64,000 nucleotides of DNA from the NCBI GenBank assembly GCA_011800805.1, contig MPNW01000167.1, positions 52,257-116,256 of the forward strand, in the 5' to 3' direction. This document shows positions 1,928 to 61,683 of this stretch, in pieces (positions within the stretch are counted from its first letter, which is position 1; every line of letters starts with the position of its first letter). A program made the position numbers and the translations under genes. Below the pieces are notes generated by a model that ran no database searches, had not been told where the DNA came from, and worked only from the letters and a program-made list of their open reading frames with translations. The DNA is from Hirudo medicinalis (Eukaryota > Annelida > Clitellata > Hirudinida > Hirudinidae).

Positions 1928-3469
1928 ATGGCAGAACGTCTAAGGCAGCTATTGGATGATCATGTATTGGAACTCGTGAAAATGGACAACCTCATTGAAT
2001 TGGAACAACTTCTATTAAATGCTTACGACCACATCACAGACATCAGGGATTCTCAGAAGAAAAAGAATGCCATGGAAATCGCTGAGATGAAGCAGTATTT
2101 TGAGATGAAGATGCTTCTCAAAAAGATGGATTCTTATAAGGTGGGTTAAAATAAAACCGATTCAGGTCGGTTGAGGAAATTTTCCATGAATAAAGATATC
2201 TTGGATTGGTTTTGATTCCAATGATTTCTGAAGAGATAAATACCTTGAGGTAAAGAGGGTAAAGTTATTTGTGGACGACCTTGAGTTGGATTAGTTATTC
2301 ATTTATTATTCGTCCAACATACATTTTTGTGAATTGCCAATAGGTAACGAACTTCATACATAATGTGGAATATAATATTGAATAATTAAAATTAAATTCT
2401 GAAGAGAGAAATAAAAGTTCTCCAGGATGCAGTGGTAGAAGGTGACATGGTGACAGTGTCCAAGCATGCTATGGAGAAGAAATGCGCTCAGTGTGAGTAT
2501 AAAATGAAAATTCATTGTTAAACAATGTTCATTTTTCGCCATTTCAAGGCACCGACAGGGGAGGCAGAACCTTGCTCCACCTTGCGGTTTTGTTCGAAAG
2601 ATTGGAAATCATCAAGTACATTCTCGATCATTTTCCAACCATGATCAATCGAGCTGATAATGTGAGTCATAAATGATAAGCTTATTTGAGCATCCAATGC
2701 ATTTAACCACTGCTTGTAGCTGGGAAGAACGGCCCTTCATTATTGCGTCTGCCTCAAAGACAGACTGATACTTTGGCCACCATTGCAGGATGCTGGTGCA
2801 GAACCCAGCATGGCAGATTCTGTGAGCCATTGTTTTTTATTGACCAAATAAGTTTGGATATGGCATTATTAATTTATTGAAAAAAGGTGTTGAACTTACT
2901 TAATTTGTGGAACAAAAATCTTTTACTAGATTGGCCAATTCAAATAAGTTATTAAATTGTTTTATAGAAATTATTAGCAATTGTGTTTTCTGAGGATATT
3001 TAAATTTATTTCAGAACAATTTAACAGTCTACGATTACGTCAAGCAGCTTAAAAATCCAATCCACAAGAGGTTCAAGTCACGTTCGAGACTTTGGAGGGA
3101 CTACACGGTGAGTTGTACTCAGTTGAAATTTATCACTGCACTAAATAAATAGAAATTTCTAGCAGGTTGAAACTAAACATATTTTCATCATTTCTGCAGA
3201 ACTTATATGAACTTGCTTTAATAACTGTTGTCAACGAACCTCTCCAACTGTTTCAGCCTTCATTCGATTTGATTGAACGCGAAAGGAGACGTAATTACGA
3301 AGAGGACTCGATTTTTGCAGGAGAAAATGCTCAACGATCGAACATCCTCATCAACGAAGCCTTACAAAATCAGTTGACTGATCTTGCCTCTAAGAAGATA
3401 TTTGAGGATATTGAAGACGAAGCCAAACTACTGAAGCAGACGAGTTTTTATCAATTTTTTAAAAAATAG
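1928..3469 (+). CDS. Ankyrin-repeat protein, six exons
   Basis: Exons read as 1928-2140, 2405-2492, 2549-2661, 2720-2821, 3015-3107 and 3200-3469. All have GT-AG borders and matching phases, giving about 292 residues. Two ankyrin repeats are clear: RGGRTLLHLAVLFERLEIIKY in exon 3, and LGRTALHYCVCLKDRL then DAGAEPSMADS in exon 4. The N-terminus is a charged helix (LRQLLDDHVLELVKMDNLIE) and the C-terminal exon is acidic and helical (RERRRNYEEDS, KIFEDIEDEAKLLKQ). The start is the first ATG in the first recognisable exon. That frame is open back to a splice acceptor at 1918, so an upstream coding exon is possible. A poly(A) signal AATAAA lies near 3511. No enzymatic domain is visible and I do not recognise the family member. 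Ankyrin repeats normally bind other proteins. Confidence 0.8.
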
Positions 3470-3799
3470 TTTAAATTACTCTTGAATGAACAATGACCCT
3501 GATAATCTCAAATAAATGAATGAGGAACTGAGTTTTCAAAAGTCGCGCATTCGATAAATCTCGACTGAAAAAAATAATTTTTCAAAAATAAAGTTTGAAT
3601 GTTCAACAAGTTAATCACAAACACTTGGAAAAGAAGCACAAGATGGAATCACTCTCGAGAAGATTTTACCCAAACATGACACAATCTCTCGGAAGTTTCA
3701 ACAATTTTTTCGCTATCAAATTAAAGTTACTAAAGTTCAAAAAATGATATGCCGTTAATAATTGCATTAATTCCATTCGATCCCATTCCAAAGATGGAG
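3470..3799. other. Short intergenic region between convergent genes
   Basis: This is the AT-rich gap between the 3' ends of the ankyrin gene (+) and the FGFRL1-like gene (-). Apart from the AATAAA near 3511 I see no gene or repeat. Confidence 0.6.
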
Positions 3800-6640
3800 T
3801 TAGTCTTTTATGGTGTGGTTGCCTCCAAGGAGAGGTGGTTGTTGTTGACGGAAAGGTGGACGATAAAAGAATTGTTTCTGAGATGAAGAAGCAGAAACCA
3901 TGGATGGAGGGGTTTGATGGCTTGCAGTGGATCCACTTATAAGGGAGTAGTGATGAGCTTTTAAAACTGCCTGGTTGTCTTCTTGACCAGGAAAGTTATG
4001 CGGTCCATTTGCTTGGTAATAAACTTGGATGTTGGAAGTTACCTCGGCAGTAGGAGTTGGTTCGTCCATCGGAGGAAAATAAGTTGTTGGAAGTTGCCAG
4101 GATCCTTGGACCGAGGTTTCAGGAAAAACTGGTGTTTGGTGAGGAATGGATGTTTGCTGGTTGCGTGAACAAGGTCTGTTTGGTATGGCTGGCTGATTTG
4201 CAGTGGATATGTCTTTCTGCTTGAAAGATGTTGTCCTTCTGCAACAAATGATGACTGTTACGAAGATTATCAGCAGCGTGACGCTCAGAGACACAATTAT
4301 TCCAAAGATGAAGTAGTATCCCGGAGAGATCACTTGTGCCTCGTTCTGAATGGACGATTCATCTGCAGTTACAAGTGAATTATGTTTGCATTCGAAGATT
4401 TAACTCAACATTGGTTTGGGAGTGACATTTTTCAGTAATTACTGCATTAAACAAAACTTATGCAATACATATTTATTTTTTATTTAATCAAAAGACTTTC
4501 TTTCCTCAAATTCCAATGACTCGTTAAAAGCCAATTCCACAAATTCCTAAAGTTCTGCCCAGCACCTGAATGCGGCAAAAGAAACACGGATCTGTGAAGC
4601 AATCCTTGGTTACTTGCCACCGAGCAAATGTACATGCCGTAATCGTAGTGATGCACAGAGGATATGGAAAGTGTGTTTGAGTAAACATCTGCAGCCATCA
4701 AAGCACCGATGAAAATAAAGCATAATAATTAATTACAACTGCATTTAGAAACCTTCGTTTGAAAGCAGAGTTCCTTGTAGAATCAAGTATCTCTGATTGT
4801 TCAAGATAACAGTGTTGTTGGTCGATGCCGATGACAAAAATTTTGTTTCCGACGAGGCAGGAACAGGTTTGAGCCACTGAATGAAGTCATTAAGTTCTCA
4901 GGGCGTGCATGACAAATTTTTTTTCCATCAAGCATCAATTGTTTACAATTCAATAATTCATGTTTAATATTCACTTTAACATCGGTGACTATGCCATGTA
5001 AACACACCGTTCAGCAACTCAACGCTTAATTGAAAACAAGCGAGCATTAAACTTTCAAGAATCACGTGACCACAAACGATTTGCTAACCTGTAAAAGGGG
5101 CACAGAAGTACTACGAACGACACATTCGAAATTGGCAGGATGTCCGTAATACGCGGTCGTGTTTTTAAGGTGACCTTCAACAAACAGCGGTTCTTCATCG
5201 GCATTTGATGCTAAAAATAGGCTCACGTCAACATAGAACTCAGTATTTCCACAAAAACTTCAACCTGCGACGTGGATTGTGAAAGTGAAGTTGAGACTTC
5301 CAACGCTGTTGAACAACTTGCAAGTGTATTTGCCAGCGTGACGATCCTTGACTGGAGAGATCTTCAACTTCCAGTGATCCTGAACAACTTCTCCTGCCAA
5401 TCCATTCAAATCTTCCTTGAACAACTGCCTGCTCTCTCGATACCACAGAATCTCAGGCTTCGGTCTCCCTGTGGCTTCGCACGGAAGATAAACTGTTCCA
5501 CCAGATGGCGCCACTACGTAAGGCTCCATTTTGGACGCATGAAGGAATTTAGGGCGAACTTGGATGATTTTTATTCTAAATTATTTAATTATTTCAATTA
5601 AATTGATTATTGTCCCTTACTTTCTTTTCCTGGAATATTCTCGAATATATTCTCGTTAAACGAAGGGCCAGGTGGTGTTGTGTCGTTCACTAAATTTACA
5701 ATTAATTATGTGAACTACATTGTAAGCAGCATGTATGTGTGTTTATGTATATGCAACACGTAACATGCATTGTTTCTGAGAACACAAACAAGAAATATAA
5801 ACACATATTTTGCTAGAAGAAGTCAGCCTGCAAATGCATTGAACACACAAGTAATAAAAATAATTGTAGCGTAATAATTTAGAATTCTTTTGAGAAAAAG
5901 ATTATAGGTTCAAATGTGAATAAATAGAAAGTTGCTTTAGAACAACAAGTTGCACTGGTTTCATTCACAACTTTCACGATTCTTCACTTATTATCGCAAA
6001 TATTCATTTTACTGTTCCGAGTGATGAGACTTCTAAGACTATCCATTACACTTCCTTATCGTCTCCTCAATGATTTTAGCGTCCGATCATATGCTATTAC
6101 CAACCATAATAATAATCATTCTTGTTAATAACTTGTCCATCCACTTTTCACTTTTTGTTGGTGAATTGTAAACGAGGTTTTAAGTTTAAAAGTTCAAGGT
6201 TAGTTGTTGTTCGTGAAATATGAATATTACAGAGGAACCTTGATTTAAAAAACAGTCAAATAATAAAATAAATAAATAATAAATAAAAGTTGATAATAAA
6301 TAAAATTAAAATAAAAACACCAACAAACGTTTCAAATAAACAATTAATTCACCGTGAACGTAGAGCAGGTGCTTGGCTTCCACCGATCCGAAACCATTGG
6401 TGGCTTTGCAAACGTATACTCCAGAATCTGTTACTTCCAATTCCTTGATCCTCAAAACCTTGTCGTTGTCTAGTATTTTGATTCGATTCCAGCCCACGTG
6501 GATGCTCTCATCGTCCTTGTTCCAAGATACGAGAGGAGGAGGTTGAAAGTTTGGTTCCAGTGGACAATGGAGTTTTATGTTCTCCCCTGCCTTCGAGATA
6601 TGGTGCATTTGGTAGCCACTCGCCGATAGGCGCGGAGGTC
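3800..6640 (-). CDS. FGFRL1: FGFRL1-like receptor: three Ig domains, TM segment, kinase-less tail
   Basis: Seven exons with fully consistent phases: 6353-6640, 5621-5689, 5265-5558, 5089-5210, 4753-4876, 4566-4688 and 3800-4362 (about 527 residues). Ig1 starts GPPRLSASG and carries SWNKDDESIHVGWNR and YVCKATNGFGS, the FGFRL1/FGFR signature. Ig2 has LPCEATGRPKPEILWY and GKYTCKLFN. Ig3 is split over three exons (FECVVRS, QWLKPVP, YGMYICSVAS). A TM helix (FIFGIIVSLSVTLLIIFV) is followed by CCRR and a roughly 150-residue Pro/Gln/Ser-rich tail that ends at a stop with no kinase domain. FGFRL1 proteins bind FGF and heparin at the cell surface and lack the kinase. The signal-peptide exon is not found: the frame runs upstream past 6640 but holds no ATG before a stop, and a good acceptor (tttcag) sits exactly at the exon edge, so exon 1 lies further upstream. 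Confidence 0.9.
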
Positions 6641-7862
6641 CTGAAACTGAATGATTTAGTAATAATATCCATAGGTTTATTAATACTGTTACTTTTTTAG
6701 AATTAAATGTCAATAAGTAATCTTTGTAAGATTAACTGCATGAGAATCCAATACTTAAGTGCAAATGTGAGCTTCTCCAGAACAATCTTTAAGAAACTTG
6801 ACTCTCATGATGTTTGTCCCCTGAATGCTTTTGAAGTGTTTGATCTGCTTTCCATCACACGAGGACTTTCATATATGAGTTCCTCCTTTCACAACTTATT
6901 ACTTACCTATATTTATGCAATAAATTGTATTTTTACTTTTCGTGTGAACTTGGGGAACGAGTAGAAATAGAAGTAGAAGTACATCCTTCGAGTAGCAGGT
7001 GTTGGAATCCATCGTCACCTCCAAGAAGTACTTCACACCTTCAGAAGATCAATGAATCTCCGTTTAAACTCCTGTTAATCATGAGTTATCGATGAAAGAA
7101 TTACAATGAAAATTCATTTTCATGAATAAACATGAGAACTCCTTCATTATGAAGAGAACAAAGGTTCCATATTCGCACTTTTATTTGTCCTCAAAAATTT
7201 CCATTTCAATTTTATTTATTAAAGTTGCCATGGTAACGTGCTATCATAACTATTCTGTTAAGCGCGAGCAGGACCCGAATAAGTGATTGACTGGCCAGTG
7301 CAATTTAAATATCAACAAGCATGTGATTAGCATGCAGATAATTAATAATTCATGAGTCAAATGTAAATACTTTAGTTCATTAAAATGTTTCAACATTGCC
7401 TTTGAGACTTTACGAATCTCCTTTGAGAAACATTCAAATGAGTTTGTTGATGAAAATCCGGAATTTGAAAGCACAAAATACAAAGCGCATTGATCGCATG
7501 AAATTGGTTCAAATTACAAAGCATTATTCGAACATTGAATCCGAGAAATTAGTTTTTATTAAACACTCGAAATTTATTAAAAGTAAATCACCTGGAAAAT
7601 ACTACAAAAATAAAAATCCATGAGTTCTGCTAACCTCCATCCACCTCACTGCTGGATGAAGACGTCAACAGACGCCCTCTTAATGTACAAGAGGCGCTAA
7701 TGGAGGCGCCGCCAAGCGTTGATGTTGCGATGTATTTTGAATAATTTTTCAAAATATTCTTTAAAGTGCTTGAAAGTACGAGTTACTTGAAGTGTTTTCG
7801 GAGACTAACGCTTCAAAAATCCAAAGAATTTCAATACACTGCAATCGGTGTGTGTTCCATGA

Positions 7863-17247: not shown

Positions 17248-20200
17248 ATGAGTTTGAAAATAAATGCTTATTTGAGAAAATCAATGGATGACGATAGCAG
17301 TAGTGCCAACCCGGGCGGAGAGGAAGAGCCCGGCTTTATCTCTTCTCGACCTGGTTCCTGGAGGGCTCGATGGGCTGGTGACGAAAATCAACCGTCTACA
17401 TCCCGAGCGGGCAACAACGGCTCGAACTCAGAGGGCTACAGAGCAGATAACCATCAGTCTCCTGAAGTTTCTGCTTTGCAATCTCTTCCTATGAATCAAC
17501 CCATGGACCTCAGAAGCGTGTCGCCCATCACTGCCGAGTCCAACCCGGAACCCTCTACCTCTCCGTCGCCTCCGTCAGATTCGCATTCCAGTAGATCGAG
17601 TGGAAAATCTAGGAACAGAGAGAAACCAGCAGGAATCTGCAAAGTCTGTGGAGATGTGGCCACTGGAAAGTATTTTGGCGCTCTAGTCTGCGTTCCATGC
17701 AAGGTAATAATATTAATATTATTAGTTTTCATATTTGATAAATATAGTTGATATGTAGAGCTAATTATGTTATTGTTGTAGTTGTTTATCTTATTCTCAT
17801 TCTATGTAGTCAGAAGTTTTCTAGACTTTTAGAACTTTTAGGATTATCGTTCGGATCGTGACGTAGTTTGCGGAGGCGAAGAATGTTCCGGAGGAGCCGT
17901 GGGCTCGTGCGCGGTGTCCTACGGTCCACTGACCTACAGAGTCAGTTTCAATGAGATGCAAATGGTTTGAATATCATTAGGACACGATGAACCTTCTTTG
18001 GCAGCTTTTGTTCTGGAGATCGGAGCAGAATTGCTGAAATTTCTTTAGCGGTCTTGTTGTTTGAGACAAAGTTTTATTATTGATCTTTGAGTTACTTCTA
18101 CGAACGAAGTTCCGACAAAATAGCCGTCTAGCTTTTTATGGTCAATTTTTTATAATTTTATATCCTCTCTTTTTCCTTAGCTGCATGATCTTTACTAAAA
18201 ATAGTTATTATTTCAACTAATGAAAATAATTTCTTGATTCTTCTGCTCTTTGCCCTAAATACCTTTGTGAGTCAGGCAAAGAAAGGAATTTTTCGAAAAT
18301 ATACCCGATCCTATATTCTCAAAAGCTATGTGTTTTGGAGTTAAATTCATTATTATTTTTTCTTTTTTAGCTTTCCTTGTAATCGCAAGATAATGTAATG
18401 TTAATAAATTAAAAGGGTTATGTTTTCTTAACTACAAACTAACAAAGTGTGGACAAACAACGAAATAAAGTCTCAAATCGATTACTTTGCATTTGTGCTA
18501 ATGATCCATTTACTTATTCCTTGAAAAGTTTGTAGCGGAATACTCCTCCAGATTATAAAATGTTAAATTTCTGGAAATTTAAGAGGAGGTTTGTTCAAGA
18601 TTAAACTGGAACTCATTTTTCTTGCAGATATGCTTCTGTTGGCATACAAATGTATTTTGAATTGCAATTTATTAATTTTTAAAAGTTGGCATGTAATTTT
18701 TAAGGGTAATTCTGACAATTGTTTCGTGATTTCAATCTGTGTCAAAATAAAATTAGATGGAACATTTCTGAGAATGCTTTTGTGACTGTTTGCTGTTTCA
18801 GAAACAACCAGCATAATTGCAAAGTCAAACCACTGTTCTATGAACTAATTAGTTAAGTGTGGGTATATAAGGTTTAGCATTAGATAGCATTGCCAGAAAC
18901 AAACTGGCTAAGATCATCAGGATTGGCCTAGGTTATTCAGCTGTGTTCCTGCTAAAGTTGAATGTGGGCCTCGGTTGCATGATGATAAAGTGGTGTTGAA
19001 TTCTGTTTATGGGGGTCCAAGTAACACTTGATAATTATTGTCCCAACTTATGAAATCAATAAGTCCACATCTTATGTAGAAAGTGTCTGGAAATCACTTA
19101 AACTTAAAATATAAAATATTAATATGTTTTATGCAAATATTATGCAATATCTCCTTTTTTATTTTCAGACATTTTTTTTGAGATACAATGGAGAAGGATT
19201 TTCATTTGTTTGCAAAAACAAGCAGGCCTGTGACATATCTGTCTCCACCAGGATACAGTGCAAGTATTGTCGTTTTCAGAAATGCCTTGCAGCAGGGATG
19301 ACTAGGAAAGGTTTGAATTTGTTATAATTCAAGAGGATGATGCTTTTGAAAACTTTGCAGTTTTGATGTCTCCAAATGCTACGGTCGAAGATCTTCGGCT
19401 ACTTCTTTCGTTTGAGGTTTTATGAAATCATTCCACACTTTTTATCTGGTTTAAGCAGTTAGCTCGTAAATAACAACTCCGAGGTCTCTGCTATCATTGG
19501 CCCGCATTGATTACAATCGTGGAGGATAACTATTTTTAGTAACTAAGCCAGCTATTTGGAACGGTGAACTATTTTTCAAGGTCTCATTTTGTTTGTTGAT
19601 TACAGTTTGATCTTGACCTGAAGTTTGTTTTTCATTTCACAGCAACCTTAACAGTTTCTTTTTTCATTACTCAACTTTTTTTGCATTTTCTCCTTTTTAT
19701 TATTTAAACCTTAGAATGGTTATTTTATGTGCTCATTTATAATCATTGATTAATGAACTTTATTTGTGGATAAATTATTTAAATTAAAGTTCTAGAATAT
19801 TTAGACTTTTAGATGCTCATTGTTAGAATTGTTGAACCAATTATAAATTATTATTAAAGAATATGAACAATTTGAGAGACCTACATTAATTCTATAATTT
19901 GTTTGCCTAAGACTGTCAATTACAAAATTAAGAGAATCACTTTAGTTGCTCTGTTACAAGTACTGTAGTACCAGCAACAAATTCCTTATGTGTAAATATT
20001 GCAGTGAGACCACCTCAAGTTGAACCCAAAGAAGGCAAACAACTCTGCGTGGTGTGCAATGATTTTGGGAACGGAGTGCATTTTGGAGTGGTGACCTGTG
20101 AGGGATGCAAGGTACGGGCATCTGTAGATTTTGACTTGCAACCTCGACGACGCTCGCTTTCTTTACAGAAATTCTTCAGGAGAGGTCTGGTCGAACACAA

Positions 20201-21104
20201 GTCTTACGTGTGCAAGTTCAACAGATGCTGCCCCATAAATCCACAAACTAGAAATACCTGCAGATATTGCAGGTACAACAAGTGCAAGTCTTTGGGAATG
20301 TCAAGAGAAGGTGAAACTTTTTTACTTATAAATGCTAATAAAAATTTTGAAGTGCATCAAATGATTTTTATATCTTCGTGAAGATTTATATTTTAGAAAT
20401 ATTTAAACGTTCTAGGATATCGGCCGATATCGGCAGGAGATCTCGAGTTTCTTTAAAATTTATATTGATTTTTAAAATCATTATTCTTTAGTGTTTATAT
20501 TGTTGGTGTTTTTAATTTTAAACTTATTCAAATTATAAAGTCACCAAGTTTCTCAAAGTTAAAACGTCTTTGTGAAGTTTTGTTGTTAGTCCTCAACTTG
20601 TTAAATTTTTCATAATGAAAGCTATTCAGATGGGTAGACCATCCAAGGCTTCTCAAAAACAAGGAGCTCTTAGAACTGCAGAAAGACAATTGGATGAGGA
20701 AGTCATGGATGTTGATGAAGAACCATCTTCAACTCAGGCTCTGGATTTATCAATCACTCCATCCAATTCAGCTTCACAGCTACATTTAGCATCCTCTTCA
20801 CATCAACCATCGACCTCTTTTGGATCACCATCATCCAATGGATCATCACAGCCATCATCATCATCATCCAATGGATCATCACAGTCATCATCAACATACA
20901 ATGGATCATCACAGCCATCATCATCATCCAATGGATCATCACAGCCATCATCATCATACAATGGATCATCACAGCCATCATCATCATACAGTGGATCATC
21001 ACAACCATCATCATCATCATCCAATGGATCATCACAGCCATCATCATCATCATACAATGGATCATCGCATCCATCATCATCGTCATACAGTGGATCATCA
21101 CAAC

Positions 21105-21144
<40 letters not shown>

Positions 21145-23843
21145 TGGATCATCACAGCCACAATTGTCATCATACAATGGATCGTCACAGCCACCATCAT
21201 CATCATACAGTGGATCATTTCAACCATCATCATACAATAGATCATTGCAACCATCATCATCATCATACAATGGATCATCGCAACCATTATCAGTAGCATC
21301 CAATGGGATGTCACAACTGTCATCATCAGCATTATCATCATTACCACATGTTGGATCATCTCAGCCGTCATCAAAGTCTTCGTCACTCGTCGGATCCCCT
21401 CGGGCATCGCCGTTATCTTCGGCACTGCCGTTGAATTCTCCACTGCCGGCGTCGTTGGTACCTTATGCACTACCTGAACCGATGTCATTTCCCCCGCCGT
21501 CGTCATCCTTTGTACCGACGCCATGTATTCCACAACCTCTGGCATCGTTTACTGCATCTTCTCCGTCAGCGTCGACTTCTGCCATCTCTCTTGGATTCAG
21601 GAGAGGTGGCATGGATTCTTCTGAAACTCTGCTTTTTGCCTCACTGCCTCCTTCCTTCCAGCACAATACTTGCCTCGCATTCAACGAAGTCTCTGATCAA
21701 ATTGTGCCTTCTTTTCAACTGTTGAATGAGACCCAGCAAGCACTTTTCCAGAACTTAAAATTACAAGCTGAAGGGAACTTAATAGAAAACCCACTCAAAA
21801 GGGTCACCATGGTGGACGTGGTCGACATTTTCAGAGGCAACAAAATAAATGTTTCAAACGACAAACCAAATCCATGGGGGAGTCTCAGGAGGCCTAAAGA
21901 TTACTCATTCTATGAAGGGGGAAGACTGAGGAAGCATGAAGGTCTTTATGGACATTCTGATCGCTGGAGAAATGAAATGGATGACTTTGTGATAGGTATC
22001 AGGAGCTTTGTTGTATCTGTATTTATATCATTGTCTTGGCAATTTATTTTTCTATCAAGAAAGTCATACCAATGTAAATAAGTTTATTGATTAATTGTTG
22101 ATCGCAGAGCACAAAATGAGATTTAGGCTGAACATCACCAAAAATTATTGGCTGGCCTCACTTTACCCTGATGAGAATCTTCATGCCACTGATGACAAAC
22201 ACCTGGAAATCATCAACATGGTTGTGCCCAATTATGGTGAATTTGTCAGTTCCAGTGAAACCATCAACCACAACCTCACAAACAACTACGGAGTTCGTAT
22301 CTTCAATCTTTCCTATTTGCATTCTCTATTTGTCGTTTAGTTATGTATAAATTGAAGTATCTATTACTCTACCATACATTGAGTGTTACTAAAAATCACA
22401 TTTCTATGCAGTACTTTAAATTTTAAAATATTGGTGTTAGGATAAGGCTGCTGAACCAGCTTGACTTGAGTGATCAATGTTAATGATTTTATTTGCTAAG
22501 GAGTGGGTCATGCAGAATGGACAGAACATGACTGCTGCTGTGATCTCCGAATGGATCAAAACTTCAGTCATCCCTTCATTCACCATTGTATCTGTGAAGT
22601 ATTTTAAGCAGATTCCAGGTTTAATGACTTATGTTTTTATTGTTCATTCTCACATTAACCAAGTGGCAATTAAATTTCTGACAAAATGTTGATATTGACT
22701 TTTTATTCAACAAAAATTTTTTAAAACTTTTTACTCAACAAAAATTATTTTTATTATATTTTTTTTCTTCTAAAAGGTTTCAAGAGTTTTGATACGAACG
22801 ATCAGATGAACATAGCTCGCTTGGGACAATCACCGAGTAGAATTCTTGCTGCAGTCTTGCACTGGTTTGACCCGGAGCTGAACAATTTCAAAGATTTCCT
22901 TTCTTGGAGAGACAGAATTCCTGGGAATAGTGACAGATTCAAAAAATACCTCATTCGTTTTGCTAACAACGTTCAACTGCTGAACATGGATGCCGTGGAA
23001 GCTGCTTTGCTTAACGCTCTCATTATTGCGGCATCTGGTAAGGGTTTTTTTTTTAATCTTATAATATGCACTGACTTATATTGGTTTATTATGGGTGTCA
23101 TAACTTCTTGGTTTGTTTTATGTTTATGTTTGTATAGCTTATGTCAGACCACTTAAGGTACTTGTAAGAGTGAATTGATGTTTTAAGACTCCTCAGTTTG
23201 TCATAAAAGGAGATTGAAAAAGGACTTTATTTTAAATGAAGAATAACTTCCCAATGTCTGATGTAAAACATAAAACATTGATAAGCCTCCAAAAAAAGGG
23301 CACATGACTAGCATTTTCAAATGCAAAAATTATTAAGTGCACTTTATAATCATATTAGGCGCCTCTGACGCCATGCATAAGGTATCACACAAAGGAACTG
23401 TTGTTATTATTATATTTTTGTAATCTTGTTTCATATTATGTGCTCGAAAAATAACGAAACCCCATCAGTTAACAATCTAAAATAATATTTTTCAATTGAC
23501 AACTTTATGTTATACTTGGTTGAAGACTACCCAAATTTGGTTGATCCTAAAGTGATTGAATCAGCTCGAACAAGGCTAATATGCACATTCCGGGCCTACA
23601 TCTCAAGTTTGTTTTAAATTCACCTCTGCTACTCAAATACATGATTCTTAGATGCAAGCATTACGTTTGTTTGCTGTTTGCTTTTTAGCCAAGTATGGAG
23701 CTTCAAGTGACAGGATGGACAAATTATTTGGAATAATCCCTGAAATCAGAAAAATTGGTTTTTTCCATCATGAAATGACCAATAAGAAAACGATGATGGC
23801 TGAAGAGTTCGGGGAACGCTTATTAAAATCATTCAACTTTTGA
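17248..23843 (+). CDS. Nuclear receptor with two tandem DNA-binding domains (2DBD-NR)
   Basis: Ten coding exons in continuous phase: 17227-17703, 19169-19310, 20005-20111, 20169-20310, 20622-21995, 22108-22292, 22501-22618, 22777-23037, 23526-23606 and 23689-23843. From the ATG at 17248 this gives about 1006 residues; 17284 is an alternative start. The A/B region is Ser/Pro-rich. DBD1: CKVCGDVATGKYFGALVC, P-box CVPCKT, FFLRYNGEGFSFVC and QCKYCRFQKCLAAGM, with all eight zinc cysteines. DBD2: CVVCNDFGNGVHFGVVTC, P-box CEGCKK, FFRRGLVEHKSYVC, TCRYCRYNKCKSLGM and T-box SREAIQMGRPSK. A long Ser-rich hinge follows. The ligand-binding domain has the helix 3-5 signature FKQIPGFKSFDTNDQMNIARL, helix 9 PKVIESARTRLICTFRAY and helix 10 DRMDKLFGIIPEIRKI. 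The last exon ends without a clear AF-2 core. Nuclear receptors are ligand-regulated transcription factors. The 22292 donor (GGA|gttcgt) is weak and least certain. Confidence 0.9.
20820..21300 (+). repeat. Coding minisatellite in the receptor hinge (SGSSQPSSS-type units)
   Basis: Units of about 24-33 bp built on TCATCATACAATGGATCATCACAGCC encode repeated (Y/S)(N/S)GSSQPSSS, with a pure Ser tract at about 21110-21140. They lie between DBD2 and the LBD. The same DNA gives His- and Met/Asp-rich shadow frames that should not be annotated. Confidence 0.9.
23355..23425 (+). mobile_element. LINE/SINE 3'-tail fragment
   Basis: AGGCGCCTCTGACGCCATGCA followed by TTGTTATTATTATA matches the 3' end of the LINE at 11705-11790. 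It sits in the receptor intron between 23037 and 23526. Confidence 0.65.
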
Positions 23844-24469: not shown

Positions 24470-26890
24470 TTGGTTAGCGAGCTGCGGGTACTGCTCTCAC
24501 TCATTGCATTGTTAAGACCATATAGCCAAAATGGTTACTGAAAATGATTGGGCTCGGACATTCTATTAGGATATGCTGGACGGTCTCATCTTCCTGAGGA
24601 AGGGTTTGGGATTTACCATTTGCTTGACCCCTCGTCTTGAAGAGGTGTCGATTTAGAGCGCATTTCCCGAGACTGTGTTTAGAGATAAAAGTTTCCTTCC
24701 TCCTTGAGGCAAATTGGGATTTGTTCCTTACCGAAGCTCTTTTCTCCACCAGCTTATATTGCTTCTCTTTGTCTTCCCTGATGGGAAGAAGATCAGGTCT
24801 GTCATTGCTGCAGGACATTTTGGTCAATGATTGATGTCGGAATCCAGCGTTCAGTTGTGTCCTTGGTTGTAGCAACTTATGCCAGGGCGTCCACTTGGTC
24901 ATTTCCTGGAATTCGACATGGGCAGATACCCAGACCAGTGTGACTTCTTTGCCTTTTTCTTGAGGCTCTGAAATAGTAGAAAGAAATCTGTAAACATTGG
25001 GGTCTTTATAGACATTGTTGTTTTCTTCCAAGTTCATCAGAGAACTTAGGGAGTCAGTGAGAATGACTATGTTGAGGGTCTCCCCTGGTAGTATCCCTTC
25101 ACCTGCAGCAAGGCAACACTCGATGGCTGCTAGTTCCGTGGAGCTGATGCTGCTGTGACTTGAAGGCTGAGCTTCGAGGCTTTCTATGGGATGTATATAC
25201 CTATCCCCGCTTTCCCGTCTTCCGTCTTTGAGGCGTCCGTGAAACTTAGGAGGTTCCCTCGTAGGTCCTCGATCCTCTCCTTGGCTACTAGCATCCTCAA
25301 GGGATCACTATTACCGAAGGAAAGGTTCGATTTATCAAACTTTGGGAGCTTTAGCCTCCAAGGAGCTATTTCGTCCAGCCTTTCCCTGTTTGCTTTCTGA
25401 AAATCTTCGACGATGTTTTTCGGAATGAGCGCTTCAATTGTTTCTAACGGCGCGAGCTGCTTTTTCTTCTTCATCATCAGATAGAGCTTAGCTTGTGTTT
25501 TATTTTTATTCGTATCTAAAAGAAAATAACAAATTCTTGTTTCGTTATTATTTGCAATTGTTCTGAGTGCATGATAAGCCATGAGCTCCTGTCGGCAAAA
25601 ATCGTGTGGAGGTTCTCCATACTCCACTTGTAGTGATGCAGTGCTGGTTCCACGCATACTGCCGCAGCAGAGAAAGAGCCCGCGCCTGGATCCTCTCGTA
25701 GAGGCTCTTGATTAGTTCGCTTCTCAGATCAACTGCTTTGCAGCCATAGTCCATTACAGATCGGATGGTGGATCGGTACACTTGCAATAGACTCGACTTA
25801 TTCCCCATAAGCTCCCAGAGATTGCTCTCAAGGTAGGTATTAAGACGCTTTAATCATCTTTGCTCTACTGCTTGCGCGTGGGCGCTCCAAGGTAACCTCT
25901 CGTCTAATACGATGCCCAAGAAGGTAACAGTAAGCGAGAGGAGCTCGTTGCCGATTGGAGCTTGACATTGGCGTCCATTCCGTTTCTGCGAAAAGGAATT
26001 GCTTGCGACTTATTAGTGGATATTTTAAAACCATTGGCAACTAAGAACTTAGCCGTTTCGTTCAGTTGTTTTTGCATGCGGGACGTAATATCTCCCAATT
26101 TGGAACCGGTGGTCCAAAGGGCGCTATCGTCTGCTTATATTGACAGTTGGACTCCCTTTATTGGTCTTGCAATCCCGTTCATCATGGTAATGAAGAGAAG
26201 TTGACTCAAAACGTTGCCTTGAGGTGTACCGTCGGGAAAGGGCTGACCCGATTTTCACCTGAATGTCCTGGAGGAAATCGTGTATCCAGTGAAGCATTTT
26301 GCTCTTGATGCCCATTTGGAAGAGCTGGTTGACGATTCCTTCTCTCCAGACCATGTCGAAGGCCTTTTCTAGGTCAAGAAAAATTCCCAAAGTCTTCTTC
26401 TGGGTGGAAGAAGCTGCAACATCTAGTCTGACGATCTGGTCAGCGCATCCTCTACATTTTCTGAACCCAGCTTGATAAGGCTTTAGGAGATTTCTGCTCT
26501 CCAGAAACCATCTGAATATGCCAGGGACCACTCTCTCAAGGAGTTTGCAGAGAGTGGAGATCAGGGAAGTGGGTCTATAAGAGGAGGGCGCGGAAGAGGG
26601 TTGCTTTTTTTAGGAATGGGAATAACGGTCGTCCTCTCCGGAATGGACGAATGTAGCCGTCCTGAATAACCAGGATTGATTGAGAAGCGAAAGAGGACTC
26701 CTTCGAGACTAGAATGAGGAAGTTTTCGAAGCATATCGTAGTGTATTCCATCAGGTCCTGGAGAGGAGTTTCCGGAGTGCTTCGTGAATCTCAGTAATAT
26801 TTACCGGGTTCGAGAGGGACGAGTCATAGAGGTCAGGCTGAAAGATTTCGGGCGTTAAGGTAAAAGAATTTTTGATTTGTGCGAAATGCG
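24470..26890 (-). mobile_element. I-type LINE with RNase H domain, inactivated
   Basis: Minus strand, several frames. Around 26500-26250 it shows RT motifs YQAGFRKCRGCADQIVRL and FLDLEKAFDMVWREG. Near 26130 the catalytic box reads ADDSALW, but the codon just before ADD is TAA, so the YADD tyrosine is lost. Further on comes NGFKISTNKSQ, then an RNase H domain (SFTDASKTEDGKAGIGI at about 25200, a DSLSS block at about 25050, WVSAHVEFQ at about 24930). The C-terminal CALNRHLFK...HILIECP closes it at about 24540. RT plus RNase H is typical of the I/R1/LOA group. Frameshifts and stops make it a dead copy. Confidence 0.75.
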
Positions 26891-34985: not shown

Positions 34986-37157
<2,172 letters not shown>

Positions 37158-38096: not shown

Positions 38097-39222
38097 TCAA
38101 GATTTGTTGTACTGTAGGGAATGGTATTCATCCCAGACCTGAGTTCCATTTTGAATATAATATCTTGAGTTAGGATTGGAGTTGCCATTGGTCAGCCTAT
38201 TAAAAAAGGAAAATAGTAAATGAGTATTTTCAAGTAAGCACGCCAAGATGTAAATTGATTCTGACCATTGTTCTGGGTACGATTCACTATTTTCTATACA
38301 TGAATATCTTCTTCCATTGTCTCCTGTTCCAAAATAAACTTCTGGTTGAACTTCAGAAGTTAAAATACTCCCATTTCCAGAAGCATATCCGTATCCCCTT
38401 GGCCCAAAGAATCGACCATAACAGGGTTGACAGAATAATTCTCCATCATGTTCATTACATTTTCCTGGTTCAATGGACTTGTTGCAATGGCCTGAATATG
38501 TTTAATGGGAATAAGAAAAAATTGCAAAACTTCTTCAAATGAGTTAAGTGATGATTTACCAACCACATCTTAAGCATGACTTATGCCACTTTTTCTTTCC
38601 AACCCTTACTTCTTCAGCAAAATAGACCCGTTTTGAGCACCTACCACAAGCATCAGGTCCATTTTTCTCTAAAATATCTGATGACGATGAGCTTCTTCTT
38701 ATATCTTCTAGTCTTGAAGTCCCATTTTTAACAGCAACATCCGCAGCTGTTGGAAGCACAGCTCCGGCAACAAAGCCATAAACCTGAGGTCCATGCATCT
38801 TGCGATAGCAATTTGTACAGAATATTTGGTCTCCATTATGCTGATTAAAGTTGGTGCTGTCAAGAGATTTCTTGCAATTCTCTGTTTCACAATTACCATT
38901 TAAGTTTTGAATGACTTTTTTTTTTTAAAGTTTTCATACATCACTAACAAAAATCAGATATTTCACTCACCACATGTAAAACACTTGCTGTGCCATGTTT
39001 TACCAGCAGCTTTTTTCTCTTCGTTAAAATAAACCCTTTGCTGACACCTCGGACATTTTGGGGCACCATCGACTTTTACCTCAACTTTGTTACATTGATA
39101 AGACAATCCTTAAATTTTAAAATATACTTTTAGCCGACTAATTCTCTGAGCAACAGTTCGAGACTGTCGAAAACATTAGCCTAATCAAGCTCACCTGTTT
39201 GGCCAAACGTAAGCTTTCCCAT
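38097..39222 (-). CDS. CRP/MLP two-LIM protein
   Basis: Five exons in phase: 39195-39222, 38971-39084, 38564-38881, 38266-38491 and 38097-38196, giving 261 residues. LIM1: CPRCQQRVYFNEEKKAAG, WHSKCFTC, CKKSLDSTN, CTNCYRKMHGPQVYGF. LIM2: CGRCSKRVYFAEEVRVG, WHKSCLRCGHCNKSI, FCQPCYGRFFGPRGYGYASG. The GP(R/K)GYG block after each LIM is the CRP family's glycine-rich signature (CSRP, Mlp60A/84B), although LIM1's version is degraded. CRPs bind alpha-actinin and actin in muscle and smooth-muscle-like cells and can act in the nucleus. The protein is longer than the usual 190-210 residues because of an inter-LIM linker with a Ser run (RRSSSSSD) and a C-terminal tail of roughly 65 residues. The last intron (38197-38265) is 69 bp with a weak donor gtcaga and is open in frame, so it may be retained. 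Confidence 0.92.
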
Positions 39223-46900: not shown

Positions 46901-49373
46901 TACTTGCTGAACAGATTCTTTAGGTCAGTTGCACGAGTCGATGAAGAAAGTCCGCTGACCCATAGATTATGACCAGATGTCTTAGGCTCTGATAGAAAAT
47001 CAGATACTAGTTACAGTAGTATTGTGGTTTTACATAATACTTCCACTTCTACTAATTTTAGGCAAATAATGATCATAATAAATCACCGTTATCTCGAGGC
47101 TTTGAGGTCTGATTTAAGCTGAAAAATAATTATGATATTCAATAGTCATTCTGAATTAATCAAACTGCACCATGTCTCAAACACTAAAAGCAAAAAATGA
47201 TTGTTGCCATGAAATTTTCGCTTTCATATTAGGAATAAAATTTGATTAATATGCCATAAATGTAATATTTTTGTTGCATCTTTTGATAAAAATCCCTTGA
47301 GAATTCCTCCTGATTTCTTTAAACAGATTCTCAAAGTTAGTATAGTAGGAGTCCAAGCAATTGAATGAATTTTGAGGAGTTGTGTTGCACAGGTTATGAT
47401 GAAGATGCCAGCAGATGTGGAGGAAATGTTGAAGATGAGGGTTCCTCAGAATGGTACATCATCCTTCGATCCATACTGATGTCGGATTTCTTCGGAAATG
47501 AAAAGTCCCGATGGAACTTGTAAACCCTTTATTTTCGTGGATGCAGATCGGAGAATTTGTAGAAAGCAAATGTTGTCGGAAGAACACCAACATTCACATT
47601 TAAAAATAAATTCTTGGGTAAATTCCCATTTGTACTATAATAAGGACAAACCTTTTTTCATTCTTTGTCAGATTTGAATCAGTCTCTGATCGAGCTTCAG
47701 AAGGTTTGGTTGAATTTTTTGGTTGATTCTTTAGAGATCTGTCATCTTTCTTGTCAAGGTGATCCTTGGAGATCCCTTCATCATTTGGTTGAAGTTCTTT
47801 GGTCTTTGTTGATTGAATTTCAACTGTCTCCTTCCCTTTATCAGATTCTTTATCATCTACATTTTTTATGTCTTCATTTTTCTCCTCTGAGAGTTGGCTC
47901 AAGGAAGGAGATAGATGCAGCTCATTGGATGGCATTAAATCATTTGTTTCAATGTCAAAAGGCTCTGTGATGCTTTCATCCAGCTTCGATGATTGAGTTT
48001 GTTCGTCCAAAGAGGTTGGTGGAAGCTCAAGACTCTGATTATGAGGTTCGTCTTTCTGAACAGGCTCGGGAGAAGGAGATCTTGCAACACCTTCAGGCAT
48101 TTTCAGTGGACTCTCATCAATGCACAGTTTGACAGGATCGTCATCTTGAAAAGACAAGTCTTCGTCAGAGATATTGGGATCACACTTAGCCTCTTTATTG
48201 CTTGCAGATTCTCCATCAGCTTGAGAACTAGCCTCCTCTGTCTCCGGAATATCTTCTAAGCATGGATGAAATGAATGTCACATAAAGACAATTTCTTATT
48301 ACATGGCTGTCACTTCCCGCATTCACGTACATTTCAAGATATCCGCCCAATTTAATACAAAATTAATATAATGCAAAAATTACCATCAATGATGTGGCAT
48401 ATCTCGAGGGAAAGATCCTTTTCATCCTGATCAAACAAATAATTAGTGCATGAGGAACATGACAACTAAAATTTTGAATTATTCCACTTAACTGTTTCAT
48501 ATCCAATAGATATGAGCTCACTAGTATCTGAGCCAATGTCCTCACAACTGGGTATGTTCTCCTTAAAAATTGAAGCAATCAAGCATTTTCATACTACCAT
48601 TTGAAGCCAAAGGCCTATGTAAATGGTCACTTTAAACTTACTTGGAAGGATTCTGCCTTTTCTACAAAAAAAGAAGAAAATAATCAGACATAAGCACCAT
48701 ATAAATGACCATTGCTACTATAACTTATAAATGATTAATTCTTACTGGGAACTTTGACTGAATTTGGAGTGGACACTTGGAATGTGTGGCTCTCAGGATC
48801 TTGTCCTTCATCCAACAATGCCTTAAATTTTAAAATCAATTTTATTTCATAAGTTTAGACATAACCAATGTAAATGTAAAACATTCAAACACTTTACAAG
48901 AAAAAATGAATCTAAGCTGAAATATCAGAATGTTATCCAGATAAGAAAATTTTTACAAATGCAATGAACACCCTTAACTCAGCTCATTAAATATTTTTCA
49001 ATTTTATTTAAATTGAATTTCTTGGAAATTGAAACATCATGTGCATCTTGTGCAAGCCATCTCAATCATGAAATTTACGCAAAGCACAACATAATACCCA
49101 GAATCATAGATACATTCATCAATCAACATATTACGGCTCTTTCGATCCAGAATTTAGTCGTTCAACAATGGGGATACAATGATCAATGGCTCCGAACCAC
49201 TTCAAGCAATCAACAAGGGTGTGCCCCTGGATTACCTTTTTTAACCTTTCCAAAAGAGCTTGTTTCACTCCGGTTTTCTCGAGCGATCTTTTTTCAAGTT
49301 CCAACTTTAGATCAACAACTCTTAGATCAACCAATCTTTTTGATACCGTATTTTCCGAAGTATTATCTGCCAT
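43959..49373 (-). CDS. SAFB: SAFB-like protein (SAP domain, RRM, Arg/Glu-rich coil)
   Basis: Exons I can place: 49236-49373, 48746-48821, 48642-48661 (20-nt microexon), 48493-48561, 48384-48426, 47652-48255, 47087-47118, 46894-46988, 46618-46767, 46440-46503, 46238-46366, 45994-46085, 45475-45638, about 45165-45303, about 44917-44990, about 44700-44790, about 44245-44310 and 43959-44179. The SAP domain is [20 protein letters not shown]...[15 protein letters not shown] long acidic Ser/Glu region follows. The RRM reads [39 protein letters not shown] and [14 protein letters not shown], the SAFB/SLTM signature. After [15 protein letters not shown] comes a charged coiled coil, then [15 protein letters not shown], and the C-terminus ends SSRRY. 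SAFB proteins bind scaffold-attachment DNA and RNA in the nucleus and couple chromatin, transcription and splicing. Borders after 45165 are approximate, and the donor of the coil exon was not found. Confidence 0.88.
45664..45846 (-). mobile_element. tRNA-derived SINE with LINE-like tail (in SAFB intron)
   Basis: Minus strand: head GTGCAGGTTGGCC (A box) and GTGTTCGAAACCC (B box), then GGAGCGCTATGTAAATGG. It ends in AGCGCCTCTGACGCTATGCA and TGGCGCTATATAAATG, nearly the same as the 3' UTR of the LINE at 11705-11790. This is the most complete SINE copy in the window. Confidence 0.75.
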
Positions 49374-49939
49374 TGTTACTTTCAGAAAGAGAAAGATGAA
49401 AAGAGTTATTGAAACCAAAGCAATCAAGATAATTTCAAATATTTCGTAGTAATCCACGTTACAACAAATGTATATATAATTTATGTCGTGCGATGCCTGT
49501 TTTGTTACAGAAATTGTGCATTAAAATCCAAAAGAAACTGATAACAAAATTTTGCGTTTCAAAGATAAAATTTAAATAAAAATATTAGTTTTAAAAGTAT
49601 TTTTTATATGACTTTTCACCAACAAAATGAGCAAATACTTTTTCCAATTCTTTCGACAATAAAAATTTATCAATTTCAGAGCAATGAAAATTCGCATTAA
49701 ATTATGACTTTTCGGAACTTGCTAGATATATAAAAGATATCTTGATTTTTTGCCATTTTTGTTGTTGGTGATGATTTTGTTTGCATCCATTATTTGAGTT
49801 ATTAACGTTCTTTCAATTGCATCAAGAATATTTTCGTCTTAATAATCTAGTTATGAAATGGACGCTAAATAAACAAACATCAAGATTACGTATAAAATAG
49901 TATTCCTGGCAAGTATGCCGTCAAATCCACAGCGAGTTT
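49374..49939. other. SAFB upstream region
   Basis: AT-rich, putative SAFB promoter (minus strand). No gene is seen before the sequence gap. Confidence 0.4.
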
Positions 49940-61116: not shown

Positions 61117-61683
61117 CTACTTAATGATGTTCTTTGAAGCTTTCGTTCTCAGGCCAGCAGCTGATCTGATTGACTTTGTGATGCAGGTTATGGAGAGAGA
61201 ATCTGAAGTGTTGAACGGGCAGTACCTCAACGTGTGGGAATTCTCCCCAGTTGAGCCGCAAATAGGACACACGTAAACGTACAGCACCGGGCAGTTCACC
61301 TTCCCTCTGGTGTTCCTCAGACTGTGGGATGTGTAGAATGACCGGGGCTCACCATTGCTTTTACAAAAAGCGCAGAATTGCGATGTTTGCGTTCCTGAAG
61401 TGGGGGGTGACTGAAGACCTTTGAACCCGCCATCGGACCCTGGAGTCGTTGCTAGATGTGCGTTTGTGCCGATGACCGGGGCCATTTCGCTCCGAAGAAT
61501 GTCTTCATTGGACGATCCATGTTCAGACTCAACGTCGTTCTCCTGAGATGAAAAAATCCACTCTTAACCAGATAACGCATGAGAAGATAACGGTGCGGTC
61601 AAACATACCTCCTCCAGCAGCCTTTCTATCTGATGAATTATGTGAGAAGCACTGCAAAGGTCCAACTCGTAAGGGTCTCCCAT
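61117..61683 (-). CDS. nanos: Nanos RNA-binding zinc-finger protein
   Basis: Two exons, 61609-61683 and 61117-61542, joined in phase 0 over a 66-bp intron, 166 residues. The ATG at 61683 starts MGDPYELDLCSASHI. The C-terminal half carries the full nanos zinc finger. The first CCHC is CAFCKSNGEPRSFYTSH followed by KVNCP. The second is CPICGSTGENSHTLRYC. Spacing and the residues around each ligand match the family. Nanos acts with Pumilio on 3' UTRs to repress translation and recruit deadenylases, which protects germ cells. The short N-terminal half has no clear NOT1-binding FxxWxxY motif. The gene is tail to tail with catalase, about 83 bp between the stop codons. Confidence 0.95.

Follow-up and report, generated by a model that had tools for sequence, protein, structure and literature searches.

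The window, a 64,000-nt stretch of Hirudo medicinalis DNA, carries on its forward strand a gene model for a nuclear receptor with two tandem DNA-binding domains (DBDs). The ten exons of the model at 17248-23843 (+) all have GT-AG borders, keep phase with one another and encode 1006 amino acids followed by a stop, with no stop or frame break in the 3018 nt of coding sequence; we set the splice borders by eye. The two longest introns of the gene are intron 1 (1465 nt) and intron 2 (694 nt). The features are listed below, and exon lengths shared with C862, a paralogue in the same genome, are indicated.

17248-17703 (+), exon 1: A/B domain plus the first DBD1 zinc module; it ends with P-box CVPCK and a phase 0 donor; Pfam zf-C4
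17689-17703 (+), DBD1 P-box: CVPCK, with the T after it supplied by exon 2
19169-19310 (+), exon 2 (142 nt): the second DBD1 zinc module, then the first linker residues; donor in phase 1; equal length in C862
20005-20111 (+), exon 3 (107 nt): remainder of the inter-DBD linker, first zinc module of DBD2 and P-box CEGCK; equal length in C862
20169-20310 (+), exon 4 (142 nt): the second DBD2 zinc module; donor in phase 1; equal length in C862
20622-21995 (+), exon 5 (1374 nt): C-terminal extension AIQMGRPSK, hinge and beginning of the pre-LBD region
20824-21328 (+), hinge tandem repeat: in-frame, unit of about 33 nt, SSSNGSSQPSS-like
22108-22292 (+), exon 6: region preceding the Pfam match to the ligand-binding domain (LBD)
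22501-22618 (+), exon 7: beginning of the LBD, including the beginning of the LBD signature
22777-23037 (+), exon 8 (261 nt): LBD core, including the DQ of the signature; equal length in C862
23526-23606 (+), exon 9 (81 nt): LBD; equal length in C862
23689-23843 (+), exon 10: C-terminal helices of the LBD, stop codon; AF-2 core not found

Pfam matched the spliced protein to zf-C4 in two stretches (E 2.7e-42) and to Hormone_recep over residues 832-982 (E 1.2e-9). All eight zinc cysteines were readable in the spliced translation of both DBD1 (residues 131-199, from 17638-17703 and 19169-19310) and DBD2 (residues 214-282, from 20046-20111 and 20169-20310), so the two complete C4-C4 modules of the original prediction were recovered at coordinates that had been correct to a few bases. 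From the N-terminus the protein has an A/B domain, DBD1, a linker of 17 residues, DBD2, a long hinge rich in serine and an LBD, and the ten-exon model and the Hormone_recep match bore out the expectation of a single LBD behind both DBDs in a splice-consistent gene of about 1006 residues. DBD1 reads CVPCKT-FFLR and DBD2 reads CEGCKK-FFRR, giving a P-P module of VPCKT-EGCKK, and DBD2 is followed by a pre-Grip of five residues (SREAI) and then by the GRP box, as QMGRP. The hinge repeat is present in 14 copies, and 13 of 13 spacings between them are multiples of 3. When the LBD signature was read in a 20-residue stretch picked by eye, five of its nine constrained positions fitted, compared to eight of nine in C862. 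A search of the last 130 residues with the published group-B pattern did not find an AF-2 core at the C-terminus; its sole occurrence there, IIPEIR (YVPELR in C862), lies ahead of the C-terminal helix.

The paralogue C862 has the same architecture as the window gene, and the lengths of exons 2-4 are identical. The linker is 17 residues long in both genes, counted from the M of GM to the next Cys on the assumption that the published boundary is equal, and within the genome the P-box CVPCKT was found only in this pair. Across DBD1, linker and DBD2, 105 of 167 residues were identical, with a pS of 0.834 at saturated synonymous sites and a pN of 0.255. The LBDs were identical at 85 of 246 positions (BLASTP, E 8e-39), with a pS of 0.838 and a pN of 0.417; the LBD of C862 was not called by Pfam at E 0.01 and was recognised by its BLASTP match to that of the window gene. 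In both genes exons 2 and 3 together, and likewise exons 3 and 4, amount to 249 nt, with phases 0/1/0/1. Because the architecture is repeated in C862, pN lies below pS and the hinge repeat spacings are multiples of 3, the arrangement goes beyond what chance would produce.

These features support a two-DBD nuclear receptor encoded by one gene; that both DBDs are transcribed together is inferred. Two adjoining genes, a truncated upstream one with only DBD1 and a single-DBD receptor downstream, joined by the model alone, would be compatible with the length of introns 1 and 2 and with two poly(A)-signal-like hexamers in intron 2. However, reading the unspliced frame into exon 3 gives no ATG ahead of DBD2, and the exon-2 frame continued past its donor stops after five residues. 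The phases match, in C862 the junction and the exon lengths are the same and the linker is conserved, and the genome contains three more tandem-DBD genes. Two genes are thus exceedingly improbable, even though DBD2 might conceivably have a start exon of its own farther upstream, and the missing ATG and the conserved linker uphold the claim that this is a single gene and not a promoter-separated pair. A decaying gene that still looks intact could explain the eroded LBD signature, the AF-2 core that was not found and the hinge minisatellite, but it is hard to reconcile with 3018 open coding nt, with the in-frame spacing of the hinge repeat and with a pN well below the saturated pS in the DBDs and the LBD, a comparison with C862 that averages the whole time since the split. 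We consider it extremely unlikely. Both explanations were rejected, given the junction conserved in C862, the pN below pS and the open frame.

By our own count the genome has 39 DBD loci, of which five are tandem and 34 are other loci. Twenty-five of the latter entered the tree and the motif counts; C41:81.9k, C48, C639, C405 and C3, whose DBDs were not readable complete, were left out from the outset, and C1397, C559, C203 and C249 were dropped from tree and counts. The three further tandem-DBD genes (C541, C628 and C326) have CEACKK first P-boxes and are by their sequence of group-A type, and two of these CEACKK-type genes carry RIGRQSNLVKH or KIGRRPNIIKH, which equal or come close to the G-box described for group A with its histidine. 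The exon phases of C541 and C628, and the readable borders of C326, were by eye the same as in the window gene. Half of the C326 DBD2 is lost in an N run, so that only the first module of this domain entered the counts and the domain is absent from the tree. In searches of the same genome, the haemoglobin-linker domain Eryth_link_C gave six matches on two contigs, which suggests an annelid; one of these stretches had no match in a PDB search. Chitin_bind_4 had no match in the genome, in a search that gave no signal at all, and so speaks only weakly against an arthropod. The COX1 search turned up a gene on C459 that looks bacterial and, on C456, a mitochondrial-like fragment with a leech-like translation.

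In the 34-row tree, which covers this genome only, the DBD1s of all five tandem genes fell on one branch with modest support (95/84), and the window gene's DBD1 grouped with the CEACKK-type DBD1s at 97/83 once the long C862 branch was removed. The tree did not group the DBD2s, but a single DBD2 grouping of the four rows was not rejected (p-AU 0.169), and the nine 2DBD rows as a group reached only 61/69. Their nearest neighbours were rows of the same genome that we take to be subfamily-1-like, the family names of all other DBD rows likewise being our assumption. The motif VC..CK.F[FY][LI]R was found in 5/5 DBD1s, 0/5 DBD2s and 0/25 other DBDs, HFG..TCEGCK occurred in 5/5 DBD2s (one partial), 0/5 DBD1s and 0/25 other DBDs, and the first P-box residue was acidic in all 25 other DBDs counted.

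These data bear on the alternative that the DBD was duplicated privately in the lineage of the window gene and C862, unrelated to the ancestral duplication of two-DBD nuclear receptors (2DBD-NRs). Such a duplication was not rejected by the AU test (p-AU 0.116), the DBD1s of the pair joined their own DBD2s (82/98) when the three CEACKK-type DBD1s were omitted, and CVPCKT is limited within the genome to the pair. In contrast, the grouping of its DBD1s with those of the CEACKK type, with and without the long C862 branch, the DBD1 and DBD2 signatures common to the tandem genes and the intron positions and phases that they share by eye all point to one older duplication, and published group-B receptors are described as already having xPCKx-EGCKK (PMC10497141). 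A private origin is therefore very unlikely.

The best explanation as a whole, to which we assign a probability of about 0.78, is that the window gene is a functional, divergent 2DBD-NR of group-B type (2DBD-NRB); its identity as such a receptor, taken by itself, is very probable. The placement draws on published feature descriptions. Group B has been reported in molluscs, annelids, brachiopods, phoronids and echinoderms, for example as Cg2DBD-delta of Crassostrea gigas (PMC10497141, PMC4070562), and is described with a P-P module LPCKS-EGCKK whose first P-box is divergent in annelids and brachiopods, a G-box KXGR(P/H) after a five-residue pre-Grip and, for 2DBD-NRs, a linker of 17-22 residues (PMC10497141, 2023). 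The window gene agrees in its non-acidic xPCKx first and EGCKK second P-box, in a linker inside this range and in a five-residue pre-Grip before the GRP box. It differs in two of the five residues of the first P-box (VPCKT, not LPCKS) and in QMGRP, where the K is Q. It also differs in its weak LBD signature, in having no detected AF-2 core in the C-terminal helix and perhaps in the serine-rich hinge minisatellite. The published group-B core has E/K at the fourth position and a hydrophilic last residue, but since most, and not all, 2DBD-NRs are described as having an AF-2 core (PMC10497141), we did not take it as strictly defining. Group A (Sm2DBD-alpha/beta/gamma of Schistosoma, NRA2/NRA3 of Helobdella robusta; NR7 of some authors) also has two tandem DBDs and one LBD, and it shares FF[LI]R in DBD1 with the window gene and the CEACKK-type genes of this genome. 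However, the window gene has neither its EACKK-EGCKG P-boxes nor its RXGRQ(P/S) G-box, and VPCKT-EGCKK does not match the classical flatworm CEACKK type (2DBD-NRA). Single-DBD receptors of subfamily 1 share the zf-C4 and Hormone_recep domains but have one DBD with an acidic first P-box residue, unlike the window gene's DBD1.

Since a small family of two-DBD receptors is already known, the gene is a useful further example of it and does not stand for a novel receptor class. Mildly new are the VPCKT first P-box, the AF-2 core that was not found, the in-frame hinge minisatellite and the phase-symmetric exon pair. The very long hinge singled out in the original prediction was seen, but it is not special to this gene because the three Schistosoma 2DBD-NRs are also reported to have a large one (PMC1810520). 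The range of flatworms, molluscs and Daphnia given there was out of date: Daphnia pulex is listed among the holders in PMC1810520, but PMC10497141, whose summary table contains no arthropod, adds rotifers, annelids, brachiopods, nemerteans, phoronids, nematodes, echinoderms and amphioxus.

How such a receptor would read DNA and regulate is a tentative matter, and we put the details below slightly short of even odds. In group A, Sm2DBD-alpha is reported to homodimerise through its LBD and not to form an RXR heterodimer (PMC1810520), and Eg2DBD-alpha1 is cited as a homodimer (PMC10497141). By analogy, the window receptor may act as an LBD-mediated homodimer, and two receptors would therefore bring four DBDs to DNA. 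DBD2, with CEGCKK-FFRR and the GRP box, would be the canonical half-site reader. DBD1 has lost two residues, the acidic one of the P-box and the leading arginine of FFRR, so its most likely role is to read another sequence next to the DBD2 site or to hold on to the backbone there, kept in place by the short linker. As no AF-2 core was recognised and the LBD signature has partly eroded, the receptor is probably a repressor, or relies on its long N-terminus and hinge, and does not follow the classical ligand/AF-2 route. The main product could instead have a single DBD, as skipping exons 2 and 3, or 3 and 4, keeps the frame and would yield a chimeric or a DBD1-only receptor. The 249-nt pairs and the 0/1/0/1 phases of the window gene and C862, repeated by eye in C541, C628 and the readable C326 borders, are consistent with this, but both DBDs and the linker are conserved compared to C862, which argues that the full two-DBD form matters and makes a single-DBD main product unlikely. 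Returning to the group-B reading, a fuller version is unlikely: here the pair would be a derived group-B branch, DBD1 would have given up the hormone-response half-site and DBD2 alone would read it, making a bipartite reader with two different alphabets on a 17-residue tether, with switching to single-DBD isoforms by 249-nt exon skipping and repression without AF-2.

As to the DNA site of 2DBD-NRs, Schistosoma DBD1, DBD2 or both are reported not to bind AGGTCA repeats (PMC1810520), and the available text of PMC10497141 gives no binding site. The present gene adds an annelid with two group-B-type genes, compared to the one listed for Helobdella robusta in the 2023 table (PMC10497141). With genes of the group-A type as well as the group-B type, and gene models good enough to work with, the genome offers a compact set for studies of the DNA site and of isoforms, and the phase-symmetric exon pair would permit single-DBD isoforms.

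Reconstruction of the receptor gene (window 17248-23843, plus strand) gave ten exons, all joined at GT-AG borders and in consistent phase. The product is 1006 residues long, in agreement with the claimed length of about 1006. Pfam identified two zf-C4 stretches (E 2.7e-42) and a hormone-receptor ligand-binding domain (LBD; residues 832-982, E 1.2e-9), which bears out the original prediction of two tandem DNA-binding domains (DBDs) and one LBD in one receptor.

Residues 131-199: first DBD of the window receptor (DBD1)
Residues 214-282: second DBD of the window receptor (DBD2)

A search of solved structures with the tandem-DBD stretch gave matches to 88 distinct sequences; in the best 60 of the 88, the best-matching stretch lay within DBD2, and the top matches were COUP-TF1 (5.2e-23), ROR-gamma (5.8e-23) and RXR-alpha (1.1e-22). 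The closest solved structure to the LBD was the bile acid receptor (E 1.3e-10). In the hinge, 20824-21328 was filled by a tandem repeat with a unit of about 33 nt and 14 in-register copies, all of whose spacings (13/13) were multiples of 3. Serine made up 137 of the 401 residues over 300-700.

The genome searched (133 Mb, 1557 contigs) also held a paralogue, reconstructed as nine exons encoding 975 residues.

L021 (C862:80000-89900), 2780-7168: second group-B-type receptor with two tandem DBDs (2DBD) of the genome, Q-rich N-terminus

Exons 2, 3 and 4 were equal in length in the two genes (142, 107 and 142), as were two LBD exons (261 and 81). BLASTP showed 105/167 identical residues from DBD1 through the linker to DBD2 and 85/246 in the LBD. 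Synonymous sites were saturated (pS 0.83) and pN was much lower (0.255 in the DBD stretch, 0.417 in the LBD), the pattern left by selection on protein. Pfam called both DBDs of the paralogue and gave no call for its LBD at E 0.01. Judged from these exon lengths, the identity continuous across the linker and the selection, the window receptor is one gene and not two, and the placement of both DBDs in a single gene was thus upheld. In both genes, exons 2 and 3 together and exons 3 and 4 together measured 249 nt with matching phases, so either pair could be skipped in frame and an isoform switch of this kind is possible. The symmetry also suggests that the second DBD may have arisen when two adjacent exons were duplicated in tandem, the breakpoints falling within introns.

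The 2DBD receptors are divided into groups A, B and C, the last from nematodes (PMC10497141). There, group A is given P-boxes EACKK-EGCKG and a G-box RXGRQ(P/S), mostly with a histidine five residues on, and group B is given LPCKS-EGCKK, diverged in annelids and brachiopods and EACKS-EGCKG in echinoderms, with a G-box KXGR(P/H). The window receptor has VPCKT-EGCKK, a 17-residue linker and then five residues before QMGRP, and the C862 paralogue shares its P-boxes, linker length and box. By these motifs, both are probably group B receptors with a diverged first P-box. Oyster Cg2DBD-delta carries CLPCKS (PMC4070562). A full-text search for VPCKT returned no paper; the supplementary P-box list lies outside such a search, so the motif may already be published. 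The original observation was right and its interpretation broadly so. The class extends beyond the flatworms, molluscs and Daphnia first named, with annelids, brachiopods, echinoderms and nematodes in PMC10497141, and is better documented than the original note assumed.

A genome search for zf-C4 gave at least 71 exon matches and revealed tandem DBDs at three more loci.

C541, L022/L023: tandem-DBD receptor, first P-box CEACKK, group-A type
C628, L024, minus strand: tandem-DBD receptor, first P-box CEACKK, group-A type
C326, L052/L045: tandem-DBD receptor, first P-box CEACKK, group-A type

The box region of C541 (RIGRQSNLVKH) fits group A and that of C628 (KIGRRPNIIKH) nearly does; in C326 a run of N interrupts the gene after the first module of DBD2. 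By eye, intron places and phases at all three loci matched the window at readable borders. The window LBD as query gave five genome matches at E 0.01 or better, one to a C862 exon and the rest to exons of the window gene itself. At this threshold it thus recovered no LBD at the three loci, where the domains are far diverged or were missed. The 2DBD genes found so far are three of group-A type and two of group-B type; Helobdella robusta (Clitellata) has one NRA2, three NRA3 and one NRB2 (PMC10497141).

Four further receptors (L048, L017, L026 and L029, on C1, C77, C204 and C405) resembled one another in having a first zinc module of the CR[VI]CGE type, and three others (L028, L041/L042 and L044) we take to be HR96-like; both families look expanded in this genome. 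Eryth_link_C had six matches on two contigs, one adjoined by an LDL-A-like module (by eye), which suggests an annelid. A mitochondrial-like COX1 fragment within a 112-kb contig (L055/L056, C456:10702-14568), leech-like in its translation and partly repeated across an unreadable codon, represents a copy in the nuclear genome or else a join made during assembly. A bacterial-looking COX1 gene on a 55.7-kb contig (L054, C459:19263-23699), presumably Bacteroidota-like, is likely from a contaminant or associate. Retrotransposon remains lay directly 3' of the receptor, and other domain matches were spread across the window.

6309-6731, minus: Ig I-set stretch
24504-26609, minus: retrotransposon remains, with a reverse transcriptase at 26127-26609 (RVT_1, E 1.3e-19) and, at 24504-25304, a frame resembling RNase H by eye, with no Pfam match
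35359-35853, plus: DEAD-box helicase stretch
38559-38924, minus: LIM stretch
49134-49520, minus: SAP domain stretch
61120-61563, minus: germline-type gene with a Nanos zinc finger (PF05741, E 2.1e-23)

A DBD tree of 34 rows from this genome only (nine from 2DBD genes, 25 of the 34 other loci) placed the five DBD1s on a single branch (95/84) and the nine 2DBD rows together (61/69). The four DBD2s did not come out as one group, but the AU test did not reject such a group (p-AU 0.169). Nor did it reject a duplication private to the window and C862 pair (p-AU 0.116). Earlier trees, which still contained faulty rows, gave 92/84 for the five DBD1s, 97/83 for the remaining four without the long C862 DBD1, and 81/84 for four without both C862 DBD1 and NR2_C559; when the three CEACKK-type DBD1s were left out, the pair's DBD1s joined their own DBD2s (82/98). 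The signature VC..CK.F[FY][LI]R occurred in 5/5 DBD1s, 0/5 DBD2s and none of the 25 other DBDs, and HFG..TCEGCK in 5/5 DBD2s (one partial), 0/5 DBD1s and again 0/25. The DBD1 branch and these signatures favour one old duplication behind the 2DBD genes, matching the single old DBD duplication proposed for the class (PMC1810520).

The first P-box residue was acidic in 25/25 other DBDs, 5/5 DBD2s and 3/5 DBD1s; in the two CVPCKT DBD1s (window and C862) it was not. In DBD structures, this residue and the FFRR arginines contact the half-site, so the CVPCKT DBD1 would be expected to recognise something different. Sm2DBD-alpha is described as forming homodimers without RXR pairing, and its DBDs as not binding AGGTCA repeats in gel shifts (PMC1810520). 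The LBD signature fitted at 5/9 positions in the window receptor and 8/9 in the paralogue, and the published group-B AF-2 pattern was not found at the C-terminal end of either protein. The partial signature and this C-terminus suggest that these receptors may act by repression or independently of ligand.
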